Source of the DNA: Pectinatus cerevisiiphilus
Lineage (GTDB): Bacteria; Bacillota; Negativicutes; Selenomonadales; Selenomonadaceae
Direction of reading: 5' to 3'
Assembly: GCF_004341685.1 (NCBI RefSeq)
Contig: NZ_SMAA01000009.1
Coordinates: forward strand, 1-64,000
Length of the DNA: 64,000 nt
Positions 140-13,035 of the stretch are shown here, piece after piece. The notes under the pieces are model-generated. The model worked only from the letters and a program-made list of their open reading frames with translations, was not told where the DNA came from and did not search any database. Numbering within the stretch: position 1 is the stretch's first letter; every line of letters begins with the position of its first letter. The translations under genes were made by a program, and so were the position numbers.

Positions 140-976
140 TTAAAACGCTGGAACTATAGCACCTTTATATTTTTCTTCAATAAAGTTCTTAATCTTTTCT
201 GATTGCAGTGCTGCTACAAGTTTTTTAATTTCAGGGCGATTTTCATCACCTTTTCTTACTGCAATTATGTTCACATATGGTGATGAGGAATCTTCAATCA
301 CCAGTGCGTCTTTGGTAGGCACCAAATCTGCCTGAACAGCAAAATTCGTATTAATTACTGCTGCATCAACATCATCAAGCGAACGAGGCAACTGTGCCGC
401 TTCAATTTCCTGAATTTTAATATTCTTAGGATTATCAACAATATCCTGCACTGTAGCCTTTACGCCTATGCCATCTTTAAGCTTTATAAGGTTAGCCTGC
501 TGTAATAAGAGCAATGCGCGGCCGCCGTTGGTAGGATCATTAGGAATAGCGATCTGGGCGCCGTCTTTGATTTCATCTAAATTTTTTATCTTATGTGAAT
601 AAAGTCCCATCGGTTCAATGTGTATTCCGCCTGCATTGACCAGTTCCATGCCATGTTCAGCATTAAAGTTTTCTAAATATGGTTCATGTTGGAAAAAGTT
701 TGCATCCAATTCCTTATCATTAAGTGCCATATTAGGTTGTACATAATCATTAAATTCTGTGATCTGGAGATCAATGCCTTCTTTAGCAAGATCATCTTTT
801 ACCTGTTCCAGTATTTCTTCGTGCGGTACAGGAGTCGCGCCAACTTTCAAGACAGTTTTTTCTCCACTGCCCGAAGATGACGAACTATCTGCTGATTGAT
901 TAGTATTTGCTCCGCAGCCCGAAAAAACCAGCAACATCATAACAAAAGTAGATAACACAAATAGTATTTTCTTCAC
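140..976 (-). CDS. metQ: Methionine ABC transporter substrate-binding lipoprotein MetQ
   Basis: MetQ is the extracytoplasmic methionine-binding protein (NlpA family) of the MetNIQ importer. The 278-aa product begins with a lipoprotein signal: a hydrophobic stretch, then the lipobox FSGC with the modified Cys at about residue 21, then a Ser/Gly-rich linker. The mature part carries the family motifs VGATPVPHEEIL near 45 and a Gly/Asn-rich segment PNDPTNGGRALLLL near 145. Translation starts at a GTG with GGAGGA about 8 nt upstream. It is the last gene of the minus-strand operon metN-metI-metQ and is followed by a terminator. MetQ-type proteins bind L- or D-methionine and some relatives bind methionine peptides; the sequence does not separate these. 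Confidence 0.93.
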   Translation of the reverse strand: MKKILFVLSTFVMMLLVFSGCGANTNQSADSSSSSGSGEKTVLKVGATPVPHEEILEQVKDDLAKEGIDLQITEFNDYVQPNMALNDKELDANFFQHEPYLENFNAEHGMELVNAGGIHIEPMGLYSHKIKNLDEIKDGAQIAIPNDPTNGGRALLLLQQANLIKLKDGIGVKATVQDIVDNPKNIKIQEIEAAQLPRSLDDVDAAVINTNFAVQADLVPTKDALVIEDSSSPYVNIIAVRKGDENRPEIKKLVAALQSEKIKNFIEEKYKGAIVPAF

Positions 977-1048
977 ACAAAGTCCTCCCTCTATTAATTA
1001 TAAGTATTTTGCTATCCATTGTACTCCATAATATACCATTTCGCAATA

Positions 1049-1702
1049 TTATTTTTTATTCAACCGCATTGCTATCCGATTGCCAATAAACTGTACAAGT
1101 TGTACTACTACAATTAATATCACTACGGTCGCAAGCATGATATCAGGACGAAACCGCTGGTACCCATACCGTATCGCCAAATCCCCAATACCGCCGCCAC
1201 CGATTGTTCCGGCCATCGCCGAAGCACCAATAAGGCCAATGATGACAGTAGTCAGCTGCGATACAATACTGGACAAAGCCTCCGGTAAAAGGACATGCCG
1301 GATTATCTGCAACGGAGTGGCACCAAGGGACTGGGCTGCCTCAATTAATCCGTATGGGACTTCCTTGATAGAATTTTCTACCTGCCGACCGATAAAGGGT
1401 ATCGCTGCCAGCGTAAGCGGAACCATTGCTGCCGTTGTCCCTATGGAAGTGCCTACAATTATACGTGTAAAAGGTATTATTGCTACTAGCAAAATAATAA
1501 ATGGTACTGAACGTACTGCATTGACTATACCTGCCAATACCCTATTAAATGCCACACATTCAAGTATTTGTCCCTTAGCCGTCGTAACGAGTAAAACTCC
1601 TAATGGTATGCCGATCAAAGCTGCTATGACCATCGATACTGAAACCATATATATTGTTTGTCCCAACGCTTCAAACAAGCGCAGTATCATTTCTTCTGAC
1701 AT
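1049..1702 (-). CDS. metI: Methionine ABC transporter permease MetI
   Basis: MetI is the membrane subunit of the methionine importer. The 217-aa protein has about five hydrophobic segments and a BPD_transp_1 (MetI-type) domain. The EAA-type coupling loop reads EAAQSLGATPLQII near residue 122, which contacts the ATPase MetN. The start overlaps the end of metN by 32 nt, so the two are translationally coupled. Length and topology are normal for the family. Confidence 0.93.
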   Translation of the reverse strand: MSEEMILRLFEALGQTIYMVSVSMVIAALIGIPLGVLLVTTAKGQILECVAFNRVLAGIVNAVRSVPFIILLVAIIPFTRIIVGTSIGTTAAMVPLTLAAIPFIGRQVENSIKEVPYGLIEAAQSLGATPLQIIRHVLLPEALSSIVSQLTTVIIGLIGASAMAGTIGGGGIGDLAIRYGYQRFRPDIMLATVVILIVVVQLVQFIGNRIAMRLNKK

Positions 1703-2732
1703 AACCGATCACCTCTACTTTTAGTTCTTGTTTTTCCAGCCATTTTCTTGCCATTTCCACTTTCTCTGCACTGCCCTTCAGTCCTATTATCATCCTGCCA
1801 TAAGGAATCGCCTGGATTTGGTCCAAATCACCAAACAATATACTCGCATCTATGTCTGGTGCATTTTTTATAAGCTGCATAATTACAGGTTCATCTGCCG
1901 ATTCGCCAATAAAAGTCAAGCGCAGTAAAAGATGTCCTCCCTCAATAGGTTCTTTGGAAACAGGCTGCTGCCTAAAAGCACTCGGCAATTCGTCACTGAG
2001 CAGAACACTTATAAATTCACGTGTTATTGCTTGCTGAGGATTTATAAAGACATCTATGACAGGTCCTTTTTCAGCGATCACGCCATGATCAATGACAGCT
2101 ACTTTCGTACATATATCCTTTATCACTTTCATTTCATGGGTGATTATAACAACAGTTATTTGTAACTCCCTATTTATCTTTTTTATAAGATTAAGTATTG
2201 CCTGTGTTGTCTGCGGGTCAAGTGCCGATGTAGCTTCATCACACAACAGGATAGACGGTCCACTTGCCAATGCCCGTGCTATGCCGACGCGCTGCTTTTG
2301 TCCGCCAGAGAGCTGCGCAGGATATTGCTGCGCCTTTTGTTCCAGACCAACCAGTTTAAGTAAAGGCATAACTTTTTCCCTAATGGTTTTCTTATCTGTT
2401 CCTGCCAGCTTTAATGGAAATGCGACATTTTCATATACGGTAGACGAAGAAAGCAGATTAAATTGTTGAAATATCATACCAATCTTTTTACGCACCGCAC
2501 GCAGCTGTTTTTCATTCATTTTTGTCAAGTCTTGCCCATCAATTTCCACTGTCCCCTCGGTAGGACGTTCGAGCATATTAATACACCTGACTAAAGTTGA
2601 CTTTCCTGCACCTGAAAGACCGATAATGCCATAGATCTCTCCCCGGTCAATAGTTAAGCTTACATCTTTAAGTGCTTGTAATGGTCCTGACGAAGTCTCA
2701 TATATTTTCTTTATATGGGAAAGTTTTATCAT
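1671..2732 (-). CDS. metN: Methionine ABC transporter ATP-binding protein MetN
   Basis: MetN is the ATPase of the MetNIQ importer. The 353-aa protein shows Walker A GLSGAGKST near residue 38, the signature LSGGQKQR near 141 and Walker B ILLCDEATSALD near 160. The last ~80 residues form the NIL regulatory domain, which in E. coli MetN binds methionine and shuts off transport (trans-inhibition). It is the first gene of the operon. I saw no SAM riboswitch in the 228 bp between this gene and the divergent neighbour at 2961, so transcriptional control must be of another kind. Confidence 0.94.
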   Translation of the reverse strand: MIKLSHIKKIYETSSGPLQALKDVSLTIDRGEIYGIIGLSGAGKSTLVRCINMLERPTEGTVEIDGQDLTKMNEKQLRAVRKKIGMIFQQFNLLSSSTVYENVAFPLKLAGTDKKTIREKVMPLLKLVGLEQKAQQYPAQLSGGQKQRVGIARALASGPSILLCDEATSALDPQTTQAILNLIKKINRELQITVVIITHEMKVIKDICTKVAVIDHGVIAEKGPVIDVFINPQQAITREFISVLLSDELPSAFRQQPVSKEPIEGGHLLLRLTFIGESADEPVIMQLIKNAPDIDASILFGDLDQIQAIPYGRMIIGLKGSAEKVEMARKWLEKQELKVEVIGYVRRNDTALV

Positions 2733-2960
2733 TTATTTACACTTTCCTTTCTCAAAATAAATGTATTTGTAATATACATTGTTTATCATAAAAAAAACTT
2801 GCTGTCAATGCAACGCCTTATTTCCACCCGCAATTAATCCATAAACGGAATATATGAAAGCCAGCGTCACATTACAGATAGAAGCATTGACTTTAAAGAT
2901 GATACAACGTAAAATAAATAAAGTTGACCGTAATTATTTTTTAATAAGGATGGAATTATA

Positions 2961-3359
2961 ATGGGAATTTTTTCTCGCTTTTTCAATAAGCGTAACAACA
3001 AACAACCGGCACCTATAAAAAATACTGTGCCAGAAGAAAAAAAGACGATAAGAAAAGCTTTCGGCGTATATTGCCATGGTCATCACAACACCAGCGGCAA
3101 AATGCTGTGCCCTAAATGCAATGCGCTGCTCATGACAGCCATGACCAAGATTCAGCGTTGTCCATATGGTATAACCAAACCGCTTTGCCATATATGTGAA
3201 ACACCTTGTTTCGGACAGAAACAGACTATAGCCTTCCGCAAGATAATGAAGAATTCACGAAAAGGCATGTTCCTGCGACACCCCATCATGTTTATCAAGC
3301 AAAAGTTGAAAGAATGGGGCTTTGCCTATATGAAACAGAAACAGTCCCAGAAGAAATAA
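2961..3359 (+). CDS. YgbA-like Cys-rich protein (nitrous oxide-stimulated promoter family)
   Basis: This 132-aa basic protein matches the layout of the YgbA/PF11756 family. The Cys/His pattern runs YCHGHH near residue 38, CPKC near 50, CPYG near 68 and CHICETPCF near 77, followed by the conserved block with RHPIMF near 114. The cysteines suggest a metal or iron-sulfur site. In E. coli ygbA belongs to the NsrR regulon and is linked to recovery from nitrosative stress; the biochemical activity is not settled. The ATG start has AAGGATGG upstream. It is monocistronic, divergent from metN, with a hairpin immediately after the stop. The N-terminal ~30 residues are a Lys/Pro-rich extension. Confidence 0.72.
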   Translation: MGIFSRFFNKRNNKQPAPIKNTVPEEKKTIRKAFGVYCHGHHNTSGKMLCPKCNALLMTAMTKIQRCPYGITKPLCHICETPCFGQKQTIAFRKIMKNSRKGMFLRHPIMFIKQKLKEWGFAYMKQKQSQKK

Positions 3360-3412
3360 ATAAACCGCAGTATCAGCGAAGTATTGCCGATGCTGCGGTT
3401 TATTTATTTTTC
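3358..3412. terminator. Bidirectional terminator between convergent genes
   Basis: A 13-bp perfect stem (AAATAAACCGCAG / CTGCGGTTTATTT) with a 22-nt loop is flanked by A-rich and T-rich tracts. It serves the YgbA-like gene on the plus strand and the binding-protein gene on the minus strand. The left arm overlaps the YgbA-like stop codon. Confidence 0.8.
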
Positions 3413-4220
3413 AATCCTTTTTCGTTATATCTTTACCGAACCACTTCTCTGAAATCTGAGCCATTGTACCATCTTTTTTCATTTCATCTAAAACTTTTTG
3501 TACTTCATCCCGCAAGGACTTATTATCCATAGCAAAACCTATACCAAAACTAGTGACATCACCTATGACAATATCACGTGCTTCAAATTTATCAGGATGC
3601 TTATTCATATAATACCGGCCGGTTATTTCATCCCCTACAATAGCATCGATACGTCCATTTTCTAAATCCATAAAGGCTGCTATATAGTCAGGATATGCTT
3701 TTACTTCTTTAAGGGAATCCTTCAATGCCTGATCCTTATTTAAATTTTCTTCACCGGTAGAACCGCTTTGCGTGCCAACGGTTTTACCTTGTAAATCAGC
3801 TAAGGTATTAATGGATGAACCCTTTGTAACAAATAAAATCTGCCGGTTATCCATATACGGATCGCTGAAAAGCATGTTCTTTTTACGGTCTTCTGTTATA
3901 TCCAAACCGTTCCAAAGCACATCAACACGGCCGCTTTTCAGTTCTGCTTCTTTACTCGACCAATCAATCGGTTTAAATTCAACTTCTCTATTCAAACGTT
4001 TAGCAGCTTCTTTTGCCAAATCAACATCAAAGCCTGTTATTTCATTGTTTTCATCCCTAAATCCCATAGGTGGGTAGTTATCATCAAGGCCGACAACGAT
4101 CTTTCCCCCTTTATCAGAGCTGGAAGAAGATGAAGCGGCTTGGTTCTGGTCTTGCCCGCAGCCAGCCAAAAAAACGGCAGCAAGCATAACGGACAAACAC
4201 GCCAGTACAATTTTTTTCAT
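3411..4220 (-). CDS. Polar amino acid ABC transporter substrate-binding lipoprotein (family 3)
   Basis: A 269-aa lipoprotein with the lipobox LAGC (Cys at about 21) and a Ser-rich linker, followed by a SBP_bac_3 domain. The ligand-pocket motif near residue 48 reads DDNYPPMGFRDENN, and FDVDLAKEAAKRLN follows near 64. The domain binds polar amino acids such as Gln, Arg, His or cystine; the exact ligand cannot be read from the sequence. Its likely partners are the permease (4923) and ATPase (5571), which are transcribed divergently on the plus strand. That split arrangement is less common than a single operon. Confidence 0.9.
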   Translation of the reverse strand: MKKIVLACLSVMLAAVFLAGCGQDQNQAASSSSSSDKGGKIVVGLDDNYPPMGFRDENNEITGFDVDLAKEAAKRLNREVEFKPIDWSSKEAELKSGRVDVLWNGLDITEDRKKNMLFSDPYMDNRQILFVTKGSSINTLADLQGKTVGTQSGSTGEENLNKDQALKDSLKEVKAYPDYIAAFMDLENGRIDAIVGDEITGRYYMNKHPDKFEARDIVIGDVTSFGIGFAMDNKSLRDEVQKVLDEMKKDGTMAQISEKWFGKDITKKD

Positions 4221-9647: not shown

Positions 9648-9706
9648 TGCTATAATAAGTGCTTGTGATACGGATACGTTCTTTTTCCTTCTTCTTACTT
9701 CATTTT

Positions 9707-9753
9707 CCATATGTTGTGCTTTCATTGACACAAAGATCTATATATAGTATAAT
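9707..9753 (+). promoter_or_regulatory. nrdD promoter with paired NrdR boxes
   Basis: A consensus-quality promoter is present: TTGACA at 9725-9730, a 17-bp spacer and TATAAT at 9748-9753. Inside the spacer, CTATATATAG (9738-9747) matches the core of the NrdR box (CWATATATWG) exactly. A second, weaker box, CCATATGTTG (9707-9716), lies with its centre 31 bp upstream. That is three helical turns, the usual spacing of NrdR box pairs. NrdR represses ribonucleotide reductase genes in response to (d)ATP. The nrdR gene itself is not in this window. Confidence 0.75.
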
Positions 9754-9850: not shown

Positions 9851-12121
9851 ATGACTACTACAATTTCAATTAAAAAACGTACAGGCGACATCGTTGATTT
9901 TGATGCCCAAAAAATTTTCAATGCAATAAAAAAAGCCAATTTAGAATCTATCGATGATACCTTTTCGCAAGAAAAATTGCATAGCCTGACACAAAAAGTC
10001 ATAGACGCTATAACTGCTTTTGCAATTCCTTCTGTCGAACAAATCCAAGACGCTGTAGAACGCGTATTGATCGCTGATAATTCGGCCAGTACAGCAAAAG
10101 CGTACATATTATATCGCGCCGAACATACTAAAATACGTGAAGCAAAAGTAAATTTGATGGATATTTATCGTGAACTTACCTTTAAGCAAGCTAAAGATGC
10201 TGATTTAAAAAGAGAAAATGCCAACATAGATGCCGATACAGCCATGGGCACTATGCTTAAATATGGTTCCGAAGGATCAAAATACTTTATTGATAACTAT
10301 ATTCTCCCAAAAGATATAGCCGTTGCCCATGTTGATGGAGATATACACATCCACGACATGGATTTTTATATGCTTACCGAAACCTGCTGCCAAATCGACT
10401 TGCTGAAATTATTTCACAATGGTTTTTCCACAGGACATGGAGCACTGCGTGAACCTAATGACATTCGCTCTTATGCTGCTCTTGCCTGCATTGCTATCCA
10501 GGCAAACCAAAATGAAATGCATGGTGGCCAGGCTGTTCCCAATTTTGAATATTCCATGGCACCCGGTGTAGGCAAGACTTTTATAAAACAATATTATAAA
10601 GCATTAACCCAATACCTCATCATAACTTTGGATGAAACTGAAGATGATTCACGGGCACTCGTCCAGAAAATAAAACAAGCCGTCCAGCCGAAGATTACAA
10701 TGGCTTCTGCTGATGCTTTCGGCAATCATTTAATAAAGTTTTTTAATGACTATCATCAAGAAGCTTTATTTGCTCCCATTCCTCTCGATATAATCAAGGC
10801 AGCACACAGTTATGCCGTAAAGACGGCCATTTCCGAAACTGACGCCGCGACTTATCAGGCAATGGAAGCATTTATCCACAATTTGAATACAATGAATTCG
10901 CGCGCCGGTGCCCAAGTACCGTTCAGCTCAATAAATTATGGTACAGATACTTCGCTTGAAGGCCGCATGGTAATGAAAAATCTACTTCTTGCTACTGAAG
11001 CAGGCTTAGGCAATAACGAAACACCTATTTTCCCTGTGCAGATATTTAAAGTAAAAGAAGATGTAAATTATAACCCACAGGACCCCAATTACGATATTTT
11101 CCAATTGGCCATAAAAACTTCTGCCAAAAGGTTATTCCCTAATTTTAGTTTTCTTGATGCCCCTTTCAATAAACAATATTATAAAAAGGGAGATTATAAT
11201 ACAGAAGTGGCCTATATGGGCTGTCGTACACGTGTAATGTCCAATGTCTACGATCCGCAGCATGAAACTACCTGCGGACGTGGTAATCTAAGCTTTACCA
11301 GTATCAATCTACCCCGTCTTGGCATTGAAGCACACGGTGACATTGATAAGTTTTATCACGATCTCGATGCAATGATTGATCTTGTCATCAGACAGTTACT
11401 GCACAGATTTAAAATTCAATCTGCCAAATGCGGCCGTAACTATCCGTTCCTTATCGGTGAACATATCTGGCTTGATTCAGAAAAGATATCTCCCGATGAT
11501 ACAATCGGCGATATCTTAAAGCATGGCACTTTGACTATTGGTTTCATAGGTCTTGCCGAAACACTTAAAGCTCTGATAGGTAAACACCACGGTGAAAGCG
11601 AAGAAGCACAAAAGCTCGGTTTGGCAATCATTGGCCATATGCGGCAACGCATGGATGAAGAATCAGAACGCACACACCTCAACTTCTCGCTCATCGCCAC
11701 TCCTGCAGAAGGCCTGAGCGGTCGTTTTGTAAAAATAGATGCTAAAAGATATGGCCGTATTCCCGGCGTAACAGACCGTGAATACTACACCAATTCTTTT
11801 CATATTCCCGTTTATTATCCGATAAGCGCTTATAAAAAAATTCAACTGGAAGGTCCTTACCACGAACTTACTAATGGTGGACACATCAGTTATATTGAAA
11901 TGGACGGTGATCCGCTCAAAAACTTAAAAGCCTTTGAATCCATTATCCGCTGTATGCATGATAATGGTATAGGTTATGGTTCCGTAAACCATCCTGTCGA
12001 CCGCGACCCTGTCTGCGGTTATACCGGCATAATAGATAATGTATGCCCAAAATGCGGACGCACTGAGGAAGAACATCTGCATCACATGGTCATCCCTCGT
12101 GCCAATTGTTTTTGCTGCTAA
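9851..12121 (+). CDS. nrdD: Anaerobic ribonucleoside-triphosphate reductase, large polypeptide lacking the glycyl-radical tail
   Basis: Class III ribonucleotide reductase makes dNTPs without oxygen. The 756-aa product has an N-terminal ATP-cone (residues 3-95, starting ISIKKRTGDIVDFD), the ten-stranded barrel with HIHDMDFY near 163, MHGGQAVPNF near 223, and the C-terminal Zn-site beginning with VCGYTG and CPKCGR near 725-737. In E. coli NrdD a short glycyl-radical segment (CGYLG) follows the Zn-site. Here the protein stops at a different tail, PRANCFCC, and the radical segment is encoded by the next gene (12258). GGGAG precedes the ATG. Operon order is nrdD, radical-domain gene, nrdG. Confidence 0.93.
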   Translation: MTTTISIKKRTGDIVDFDAQKIFNAIKKANLESIDDTFSQEKLHSLTQKVIDAITAFAIPSVEQIQDAVERVLIADNSASTAKAYILYRAEHTKIREAKVNLMDIYRELTFKQAKDADLKRENANIDADTAMGTMLKYGSEGSKYFIDNYILPKDIAVAHVDGDIHIHDMDFYMLTETCCQIDLLKLFHNGFSTGHGALREPNDIRSYAALACIAIQANQNEMHGGQAVPNFEYSMAPGVGKTFIKQYYKALTQYLIITLDETEDDSRALVQKIKQAVQPKITMASADAFGNHLIKFFNDYHQEALFAPIPLDIIKAAHSYAVKTAISETDAATYQAMEAFIHNLNTMNSRAGAQVPFSSINYGTDTSLEGRMVMKNLLLATEAGLGNNETPIFPVQIFKVKEDVNYNPQDPNYDIFQLAIKTSAKRLFPNFSFLDAPFNKQYYKKGDYNTEVAYMGCRTRVMSNVYDPQHETTCGRGNLSFTSINLPRLGIEAHGDIDKFYHDLDAMIDLVIRQLLHRFKIQSAKCGRNYPFLIGEHIWLDSEKISPDDTIGDILKHGTLTIGFIGLAETLKALIGKHHGESEEAQKLGLAIIGHMRQRMDEESERTHLNFSLIATPAEGLSGRFVKIDAKRYGRIPGVTDREYYTNSFHIPVYYPISAYKKIQLEGPYHELTNGGHISYIEMDGDPLKNLKAFESIIRCMHDNGIGYGSVNHPVDRDPVCGYTGIIDNVCPKCGRTEEEHLHHMVIPRANCFCC

Positions 12122-12257
12122 GCATATAGACAATTATAGTATGTTTAACATTTTATAAAACCAGTAAAAACAGGTTACCACTTATGAACTGGAAAAAGCA
12201 AAAGCAATACAACCTCACTAAAATAATAATTTAACAAAAACAAAGGAAGTGCCCACA

Positions 12258-12542
12258 ATGTTAATAAAAGGTATAGAAATTAATGTAAACGGCGTAAACG
12301 ATATTTCCGAAAAAGAAATAGTAAGCTACATTGACCGCATAGAAAATGAATCTGCCAAAAGATTGAAATCGCTCTCTATAACTGATGGAGGAAATGGTAA
12401 TATAGCGCTTGACTATAAACTCCGCCCCGCCAAATTTGAACGTATCCGCCGCATTACCGGTTACCTTGTTGGCACTACAGACCGTTTCAATAATGCAAAA
12501 CGCGCAGAGGAGCATGATCGTGTAAAACATGGTCTCAATTAA
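12258..12542 (+). CDS. Separate glycyl-radical domain of class III ribonucleotide reductase
   Basis: The 94-aa product has an N-terminal part of about 55 aa (beta/alpha, not recognised) and a C-terminal part. The latter aligns, from recall, with the extreme C-terminus of fused NrdD: FERIRRITGYLVG, then FNNAKRAEEHDRVKHG. In E. coli NrdD the corresponding stretch is RRVCGYLG followed by FNAGKQEEVKRRVKH. Gly68 of this protein occupies the position of the radical glycine. The ATG at 12258 is preferred because AAGGAAG ends 9 nt before it; a GTG at 12249 is the alternative. The gene overlaps nrdG by 14 nt. Its role as a trans-acting radical subunit is inferred from position and similarity. Confidence 0.75.
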   Translation: MLIKGIEINVNGVNDISEKEIVSYIDRIENESAKRLKSLSITDGGNGNIALDYKLRPAKFERIRRITGYLVGTTDRFNNAKRAEEHDRVKHGLN

Positions 12543-13035
12543 AATTGCTGGCACTGTCGATGATTCAATAGTAGATGGGGAAGGTTACCGTTTTACCATT
12601 TTTACACAAGGTTGTCCCCATAACTGCCCCGGCTGCCATAATCCCAATACCCATGCAGCTGACGGTGGTGTAACTGTTGACATTGATACCTTATTTGCCA
12701 AAATATGCCAAAATCCACTGTTATCTGGTGTTACATTCAGTGGCGGTGAACCTTTTTTGCAGGCAGGCGCACTTGCTGCCCTCGCCGAAAAAATTCACAC
12801 GCGACCACTTCTTGATATAACCACTTACACAGGTTATACCTTAGAACAACTTACAGCGATGCATGACAGTGATGTCACACACTTGCTGGCAGCTACCGAT
12901 ATTCTCATAGACGGTCCATTTTTACAGGAAAAACGCGACCTGTCATTGATATTTCGTGGCAGCAGCAACCAACGTATTATTGATATGAATGCGACAAGAG
13001 AAAAAGGCTGTATTGTCCTAAAAAACTTTGATTAA
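12529..13035 (+). CDS. nrdG: Anaerobic ribonucleotide reductase activating protein NrdG (radical SAM)
   Basis: NrdG uses a [4Fe-4S] cluster and S-adenosylmethionine to create the glycyl radical on the reductase. The 168-aa protein carries the radical SAM motif CPHNCPGC near residue 29 and TFSGGEPFLQ near 67. It begins inside the 3' end of the radical-domain gene, so the two are translationally coupled. That fits NrdG acting on that small protein. It is followed by a hairpin terminator. Confidence 0.94.
   Translation: MVSIKIAGTVDDSIVDGEGYRFTIFTQGCPHNCPGCHNPNTHAADGGVTVDIDTLFAKICQNPLLSGVTFSGGEPFLQAGALAALAEKIHTRPLLDITTYTGYTLEQLTAMHDSDVTHLLAATDILIDGPFLQEKRDLSLIFRGSSNQRIIDMNATREKGCIVLKNFD

Follow-up and report, generated by a model that had tools for sequence, protein, structure and literature searches.

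Pectinatus cerevisiiphilus appears to encode a two-component class III ribonucleotide reductase (RNR), in which an NrdD lacking its glycyl-radical segment would work together with a separate 94-aa radical protein and the NrdG activase, and on the sequence evidence we put the probability of this reading at about 0.85. The genes lie in the same direction, in the order nrdD, 94-aa ORF, nrdG, within the window (the whole 64,000-nucleotide stretch of DNA that was analyzed), with the following features:

9705-9720 and 9736-9751, + strand: two NrdR-box-like sites, 31 bp apart, found by a scan upstream of nrdD
9725-9730 (TTGACA) and 9748-9753 (TATAAT), + strand: sigma-70-type promoter, flanked by the NrdR-box-like sites
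9851-12121, + strand: nrdD, class III RNR catalytic subunit without a glycyl-radical segment, 756 aa (PF13597, PF03477, NF005497)
12244-12249, + strand: Shine-Dalgarno-like AGGAAG, 8 nt 5' of the ATG at 12258, read directly from the sequence
12258-12542, + strand: gene for the putative separate glycyl-radical subunit, 94 aa plus stop (PF13597 positions 533-562)
12258-12431, + strand: part of the small gene encoding aa 1-58, an N-terminal domain that AF2 predicts as beta-alpha-beta-beta
12432-12539, + strand: glycyl-radical segment of the small protein, aa 59-94, KFERIRRITGYLVGTTDRFNNAKRAEEHDRVKHGLN, by alignment to Prevotella copri NrdD around Gly711
12459-12461, + strand: codon of the radical Gly68 of the small protein, aligned with P. 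copri Gly711
12529-13035, + strand: nrdG, radical SAM activase (TIGR02491, 140 bits, above its cut-off)

An earlier sequence-only reading of this DNA had given the small gene a ribosome site of its own and an overlap with nrdG. The AGGAAG ahead of the ATG bears out the first point, although an in-frame upstream GTG at 12249 is an alternative start that would add three residues, and the overlap is 14 nt, between the small-gene stop (12540-12542) and the nrdG start. The gap from the NrdD stop to the small-gene ATG is 136 nt, and the two genes are in different frames.

The NrdD family model is divided between the two chains. In a profile search, NrdD covers positions 1-532 of the 562 in PF13597 (E 2.5e-191) and the small ORF takes up the remainder, 533-562, with an E of 1.7e-7 that passes the Pfam cut-off; since the two matches abut exactly, the partition is clean and chance is excluded. 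The proposals that NrdD stops just after its zinc site, and that the missing radical segment forms the C-terminus of the next gene's product, both agree with these boundaries. NrdD also matches NF005497 at 1060 bits, above its cut-off, and carries an ATP-cone (PF03477) at residues 6-93. The radical segment is not on the chain of the NrdD barrel but on the 94-aa protein, which the protein-family libraries searched label merely as an NrdD fragment. A second, fused nrdD had been named as the thing to look for elsewhere in the genome, which is 100% complete; a PF13597 search of it found these two genes and no third match.

Residue roles in NrdD were assigned by alignment to P. copri NrdD, with the functions taken from PMC11226230. 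C458 (position 11222) is the radical cysteine and aligns with P. copri Cys416, C179 (10385) is the partner cysteine and aligns with Cys171, the flap is N123-x-N125 (10217), and the Asn of a formate-type site lies in RGN (residues 477-479). On the small protein, KFERIRRITGYLVGTTDRFNNAKRAEEHDRVKHG is the stretch that aligns around P. copri Gly711. In the P. copri enzyme the interface between the glycyl-radical domain and the barrel includes the contacts Tyr712-Glu581 and Arg719 to the NxN flap (PMC11226230), and the corresponding residues are kept in trans here, as G68/C458, Y69/E620 and R76/N123-x-N125 (small protein/NrdD).

We propose that NrdD contributes the barrel and its active-site cysteines, together with the ATP-cone and the zinc site, while NrdG would install the storage radical on Gly68, probably with the small protein already bound to NrdD. 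The GYLVG loop of the small protein would then enter the NrdD barrel with Gly68 facing C458, the placement that the C-terminal loop has in fused enzymes, and the radical would be relayed from the Gly68 loop to C458. The sequence-only reading had also claimed a new N-terminal domain of about 55 aa on the small protein, and the domain we find occupies aa 1-58, with a beta-alpha-beta-beta prediction by AF2 (pLDDT 83-90 over residues 1-60); a Foldseek search of the small protein against the PDB gave no match with E <= 0.001. This domain probably docks the small protein to NrdD or NrdG. For the complex we used an AF2 monomer run on a read-through NrdD-plus-small-protein chain of a congener (L007) whose two genes share a reading frame, the stop codon between them being treated as an amino acid. 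The NrdD part of that model is sound, with P. copri NrdD as its best PDB matches, and the radical loop has a pLDDT of about 42 in a monomer prediction from a shallow alignment of 41 rows.

Survey of the family argues for the split as a settled arrangement. The family was taken to be Selenomonadaceae on the basis of named contigs such as Megamonas, Anaerovibrio, Mitsuokella, Schwartzia and Selenomonas, and the sample comprised 61 of its genomes from 30 genera, 58 of them with PF13597 matches. A small gene accompanies the truncated NrdD in 54 of the 54 assessable genomes that have one; NrdD ends there at about profile position 530-540, and the separate gene holds positions 532-562. One genome whose NrdD runs off its contig (G023) was left out of this count. 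Three genomes (G011, G030 and G052) have a fused NrdD alone and no small gene, and the association of truncated NrdD with small-gene presence has a Fisher p of 3e-5. An extra fused NrdD besides the split pair occurs in one genome (G010), and a single small gene accompanies two different truncated NrdDs in Anaerovibrio RM50 (G021), which share only about half of their residues in the alignments. The small gene is often on a different contig from nrdD and, when apart from it, usually lies ahead of nrdG. Among the matches listed, the split occurs in Selenomonadaceae alone and the other families of Negativicutes have fused enzymes, the outcome of a survey that the sequence-only reading had called for. 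Its further claim, that the split is the normal arrangement, is supported for Selenomonadaceae by sequence comparison: the pair is near-universal there, G68 is invariant, and the small gene adjoins nrdG or, where it is unlinked, bears NrdR-like boxes. Extra small genes in three genomes (L051, L065 and L038, in G018, G027 and G040) lie near genes that cluster with phage-contig neighbors, among them an N-acetylmuramoyl-alanine amidase-like protein and a terminase-like protein, and on account of these phage-type neighbors the copies look prophage-borne.

An alignment of 52 Selenomonadaceae relatives of the small protein shows no variation at G68 or in 18 further columns, nearly all of them in the radical segment. 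Among congeners, this segment has a dN of 0 to 0.08 and a pN/pS of 0 to 0.14; between the window species and one congener its dN is 0 and the pN/pS of the whole small gene is 0.10, with synonymous sites near saturation. Selection on the radical segment is thus strongly purifying, and the N-terminal 58 residues evolve faster.

These data bear on the possibility that the class III enzyme encoded by the pair is inactive and in decay and that deoxynucleotides are made by the class II NrdJ, which is the other RNR of this genome (L032, C4:182108; TIGR02504, 466 bits). The presence of NrdJ means that class III activity need not be essential, yet some 28 genera retain both genes, their catalytic residues intact, the small gene is under purifying selection, nrdG is intact, and NrdR-like boxes are found on nrdD and on unlinked small genes, so that we consider decay very unlikely. 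The NrdJ scores well below the cut-off of NF006417 (vitamin B12-dependent RNR). Equally improbable, in our judgment, is a regulatory or decoy role, in which the small protein would present NrdG with an imitation of the NrdD C-terminus while NrdD itself ran without a glycyl radical. The frequent position of the small gene beside nrdG would fit such a role, but the glycine and its surrounding residues are invariant, NrdD retains its radical cysteine and flap, and no alternative radical source is visible.

The small protein is probably one member of a larger group of NrdD-type radical proteins that stand alone. A profile search with it found standalone relatives of about 86-100 aa in Clostridia, in Coriobacteriia and in one MAG labeled Verrucomicrobia, and further relatives on many phage contigs, some of just 50-68 aa and without the N-terminal domain. 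That domain is also absent from some clostridial versions, so the docking proposed for it would not apply throughout. Outside Selenomonadaceae, most cellular genomes that were examined have a full-length fused NrdD as well, two examples being Ruminococcus flavefaciens FD-1 and Adlercreutzia hattorii. Of 108 genomes sampled class-wide around R. flavefaciens, three have the fused enzyme plus a small protein (G217, G288 and G302, the last with the two genes adjacent) and one has the split (G323); in the coriobacterial class, 9 of 60 genomes have the fused NrdD plus a small protein. The standalone genes of Clostridia and Coriobacteriia are unlinked, with no nrdD or nrdG within the fetched flanks, and no recurrent gene was found among the clostridial neighbors, where antisense ORFs add noise. 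Phage small genes adjoin nrdG. Six viral contigs (L190, L191, L212, L216, L220 and L232) carry radical-loop ORFs of 54-68 aa with no N-terminal domain and no nrdD nearby, and such very short ORFs perhaps supply the host NrdD during infection. Eggerthella phage EL753P1 (OP172808.1, L263) has, at 650-4081, an NrdD with an intein-like insertion at the radical cysteine (MGC|RTR) that ends after the zinc site, followed by a radical-loop ORF with a frame change between FERIRRI and TGYLTG; this ORF is either broken or frameshifted, or reflects a sequence error.

NrdR is a repressor of RNR genes, and nrdR is present in the window genome. We searched for its sites with a consensus of our own and with ORF-based proxies for gene calls, taking as background the sequence ahead of other genes whose upstream gaps were similar. 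The best box pair upstream of the window nrdD scores 24 of 32. An NrdR-like site lies upstream of 32 of the 52 standalone genes of Clostridia and Coriobacteriia but of just 13 of 210 other genes (p = 2e-17), and upstream of 21 of 40 small genes of Selenomonadaceae, against 35 of 192 others, some of which are themselves nrd genes. The phage small genes have no such excess (1 of 38 against 2 of 218). The NrdR-like sites thus connect the standalone protein with ribonucleotide reduction by a route that does not depend on sequence similarity.

The nearest functional parallels are YfiD/GrcA and T4 Y06I, the spare parts of pyruvate formate-lyase (PFL), which are likewise small standalone proteins bearing the radical glycine of a larger enzyme (PMC8683613). 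These two are the only validated spare parts, both for PFL, and others have been considered possible (PMC8683613). The window protein differs in being of the NrdD type, with a match to PF13597 and none to PF01228, the PFL-type Gly_radical domain, and in being the only radical carrier in Selenomonadaceae: the window genome has no full-length NrdD to repair. The relatives in Clostridia and Coriobacteriia do coexist with a full-length enzyme, and for them YfiD/GrcA and Y06I are a functional parallel. This coexistence suggests a YfiD/GrcA-like spare part for RNR, and the standalone proteins beside fused NrdDs in Clostridia and Coriobacteriia are likely to be spare parts. The comparison with YfiD/GrcA made in the sequence-only reading is apt as an analogy and extends further than it was drawn, as the small protein accompanies fused NrdDs in these classes.

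It could then be asked whether the small protein merely repairs O2-cleaved NrdD in Pectinatus as well, as YfiD does for PFL, and is not the normal radical carrier. Repair is the likely role wherever a fused NrdD also occurs, and PMC8683613 suggests such parts for other glycyl-radical enzymes, but the window genome and nearly all of its relatives in the family have no NrdD bearing a radical glycine of its own, and we think a repair-only role there less probable still than decay or a decoy. Because NrdD lacks its own radical segment in Selenomonadaceae and in some phages, the small protein would be obligatory in them.

Other RNRs are also known in pieces. The split class II NrdJa/NrdJb of Pseudomonas aeruginosa (PMC9669993) and the genes-in-pieces NrdA of Aeh1 (PMC2988022) are both reported to form a functional RNR from two chains, but they belong to other RNR classes, and what is detached in them is not the radical cofactor. 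Introns or inteins split some phage nrdD genes (PMC3653736), again leaving nrdD in pieces; there, however, intervening elements or fragmentation cause the break, whereas here the break is at a domain border, a domain is added, the arrangement is conserved in cellular genomes, and the pieces can be unlinked. What lies between the pieces in the window is not an intervening element but the 136-nt gap, followed by the added, conserved N-terminal domain. The least probable account of all is that the radical segment is joined to NrdD at the RNA or protein level (by frameshift, bypass or splicing) to give a fused enzyme, as the adjacency of the two genes in the window might suggest, against which stand the stop codons inside the gap, the ribosome site of the small gene, the conservation of its extra domain, and its place on another contig, beside nrdG, in many genera. 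Relative to fused NrdDs (P. copri 8p23, T4 1h7a), the two-chain enzyme of Pectinatus has the same ATP-cone, barrel, radical cysteine, zinc site, GYLVG loop and NrdG, and differs in that NrdD ends after the zinc site and a second polypeptide, which has an N-terminal domain of its own, carries the radical loop. A search of open-access PMC text turned up no paper describing a split class III RNR in a cellular genome or a spare part of the NrdD type.

A tree of NrdD built without the radical segment places the split enzymes in several positions: the window clade, a second Selenomonas-type clade (grouping with a phage enzyme, L177, on long branches, and thus uncertain), a phage clade, and two Clostridia (L253 and L261) nested among fused NrdDs. 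The whole tree requires at least seven changes between fused and split. Two fused enzymes (L003 and L004, from G011 and G052) are nested in the window clade, and a single grouping of that clade's split enzymes is rejected (AU p = 0.002), which implies either re-fusions or several splits. These two and a further two fused enzymes (L266 and L268) lie at the edge of or inside the split Selenomonadaceae clade and have radical segments nearly identical to the small proteins; all four are possible re-fusions. In one clostridial genome (G323) the order is nrdD, a 66-aa radical ORF and nrdG, and another (G364) has a similar operon. A distinct NrdD subfamily (PRK08270 type, with NrdG2) is split in five Coriobacteriia genomes, where NrdD ends in EACCA or alike and an ORF of about 65 aa carries RVMGYHRPVxSFNxGKQGEYAERV. 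As far as these sequences allow, the separation apparently arose several times independently, in this family, in other bacteria and in phages. A frameshift or remnant origin was considered for the two clostridial split NrdDs and rejected, as their ends are clean and L253 runs straight into nrdG. An apparent radical-domain remnant after the NrdD stop in G026 was a chance alignment.

In the literature searched, class III RNRs have their radical on the catalytic chain, and cleavage by O2 at the glycine ruins the enzyme. With the O2-labile residue on a small protein, the damaged unit would be exchangeable and the 85-kDa subunit would not have to be discarded. We give roughly even odds to a broader reading, in which the glycyl-radical domain is an exchangeable protein cofactor: a widespread, NrdR-controlled family of spare parts for fused NrdDs, able to serve more than one NrdD per cell and host enzymes during phage infection, would have let NrdD repeatedly drop its own domain. 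Such losses would have been convergent, in two NrdD subfamilies and in phages, and now and then followed by re-fusion. If the two-component reading is true, anaerobes could swap the damaged radical part of their class III RNR, and the detachable subunit would keep radical storage physically apart from catalysis, much as the beta subunit does in class I RNR. With the two-chain enzyme, radical transfer, docking of the activase and control by dATP could be followed cleanly in vitro. The question of spare parts for enzymes other than PFL (PMC8683613) also becomes testable, with the small genes that bear NrdR-like boxes in genomes with fused NrdDs as the candidates.

The end of the catalytic chain itself also has some features of interest. 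The zinc site described in the sequence-only reading is present before the C-terminus, with the refinement that it comprises three cysteines (C722, C732 and C735), an arrangement likewise seen in fused NrdD relatives. The tail runs ...HMVIPRANCFCC, and the Cys-rich end NCFCC to which that reading had drawn attention is there in the sequence. Many truncated NrdDs, including some from apparently independent splits, end in a Cys pair or cluster (12089-12118 in the window; L008, L009, L018, L055, L290 and L298, for example), although this is not universal. The forms include NCFCC, CCSN, SCCDD, SCCE, ECCYGK and EACCA, and these ends are reminiscent of the redox-active C-terminal Cys pairs of class I and class II RNRs.
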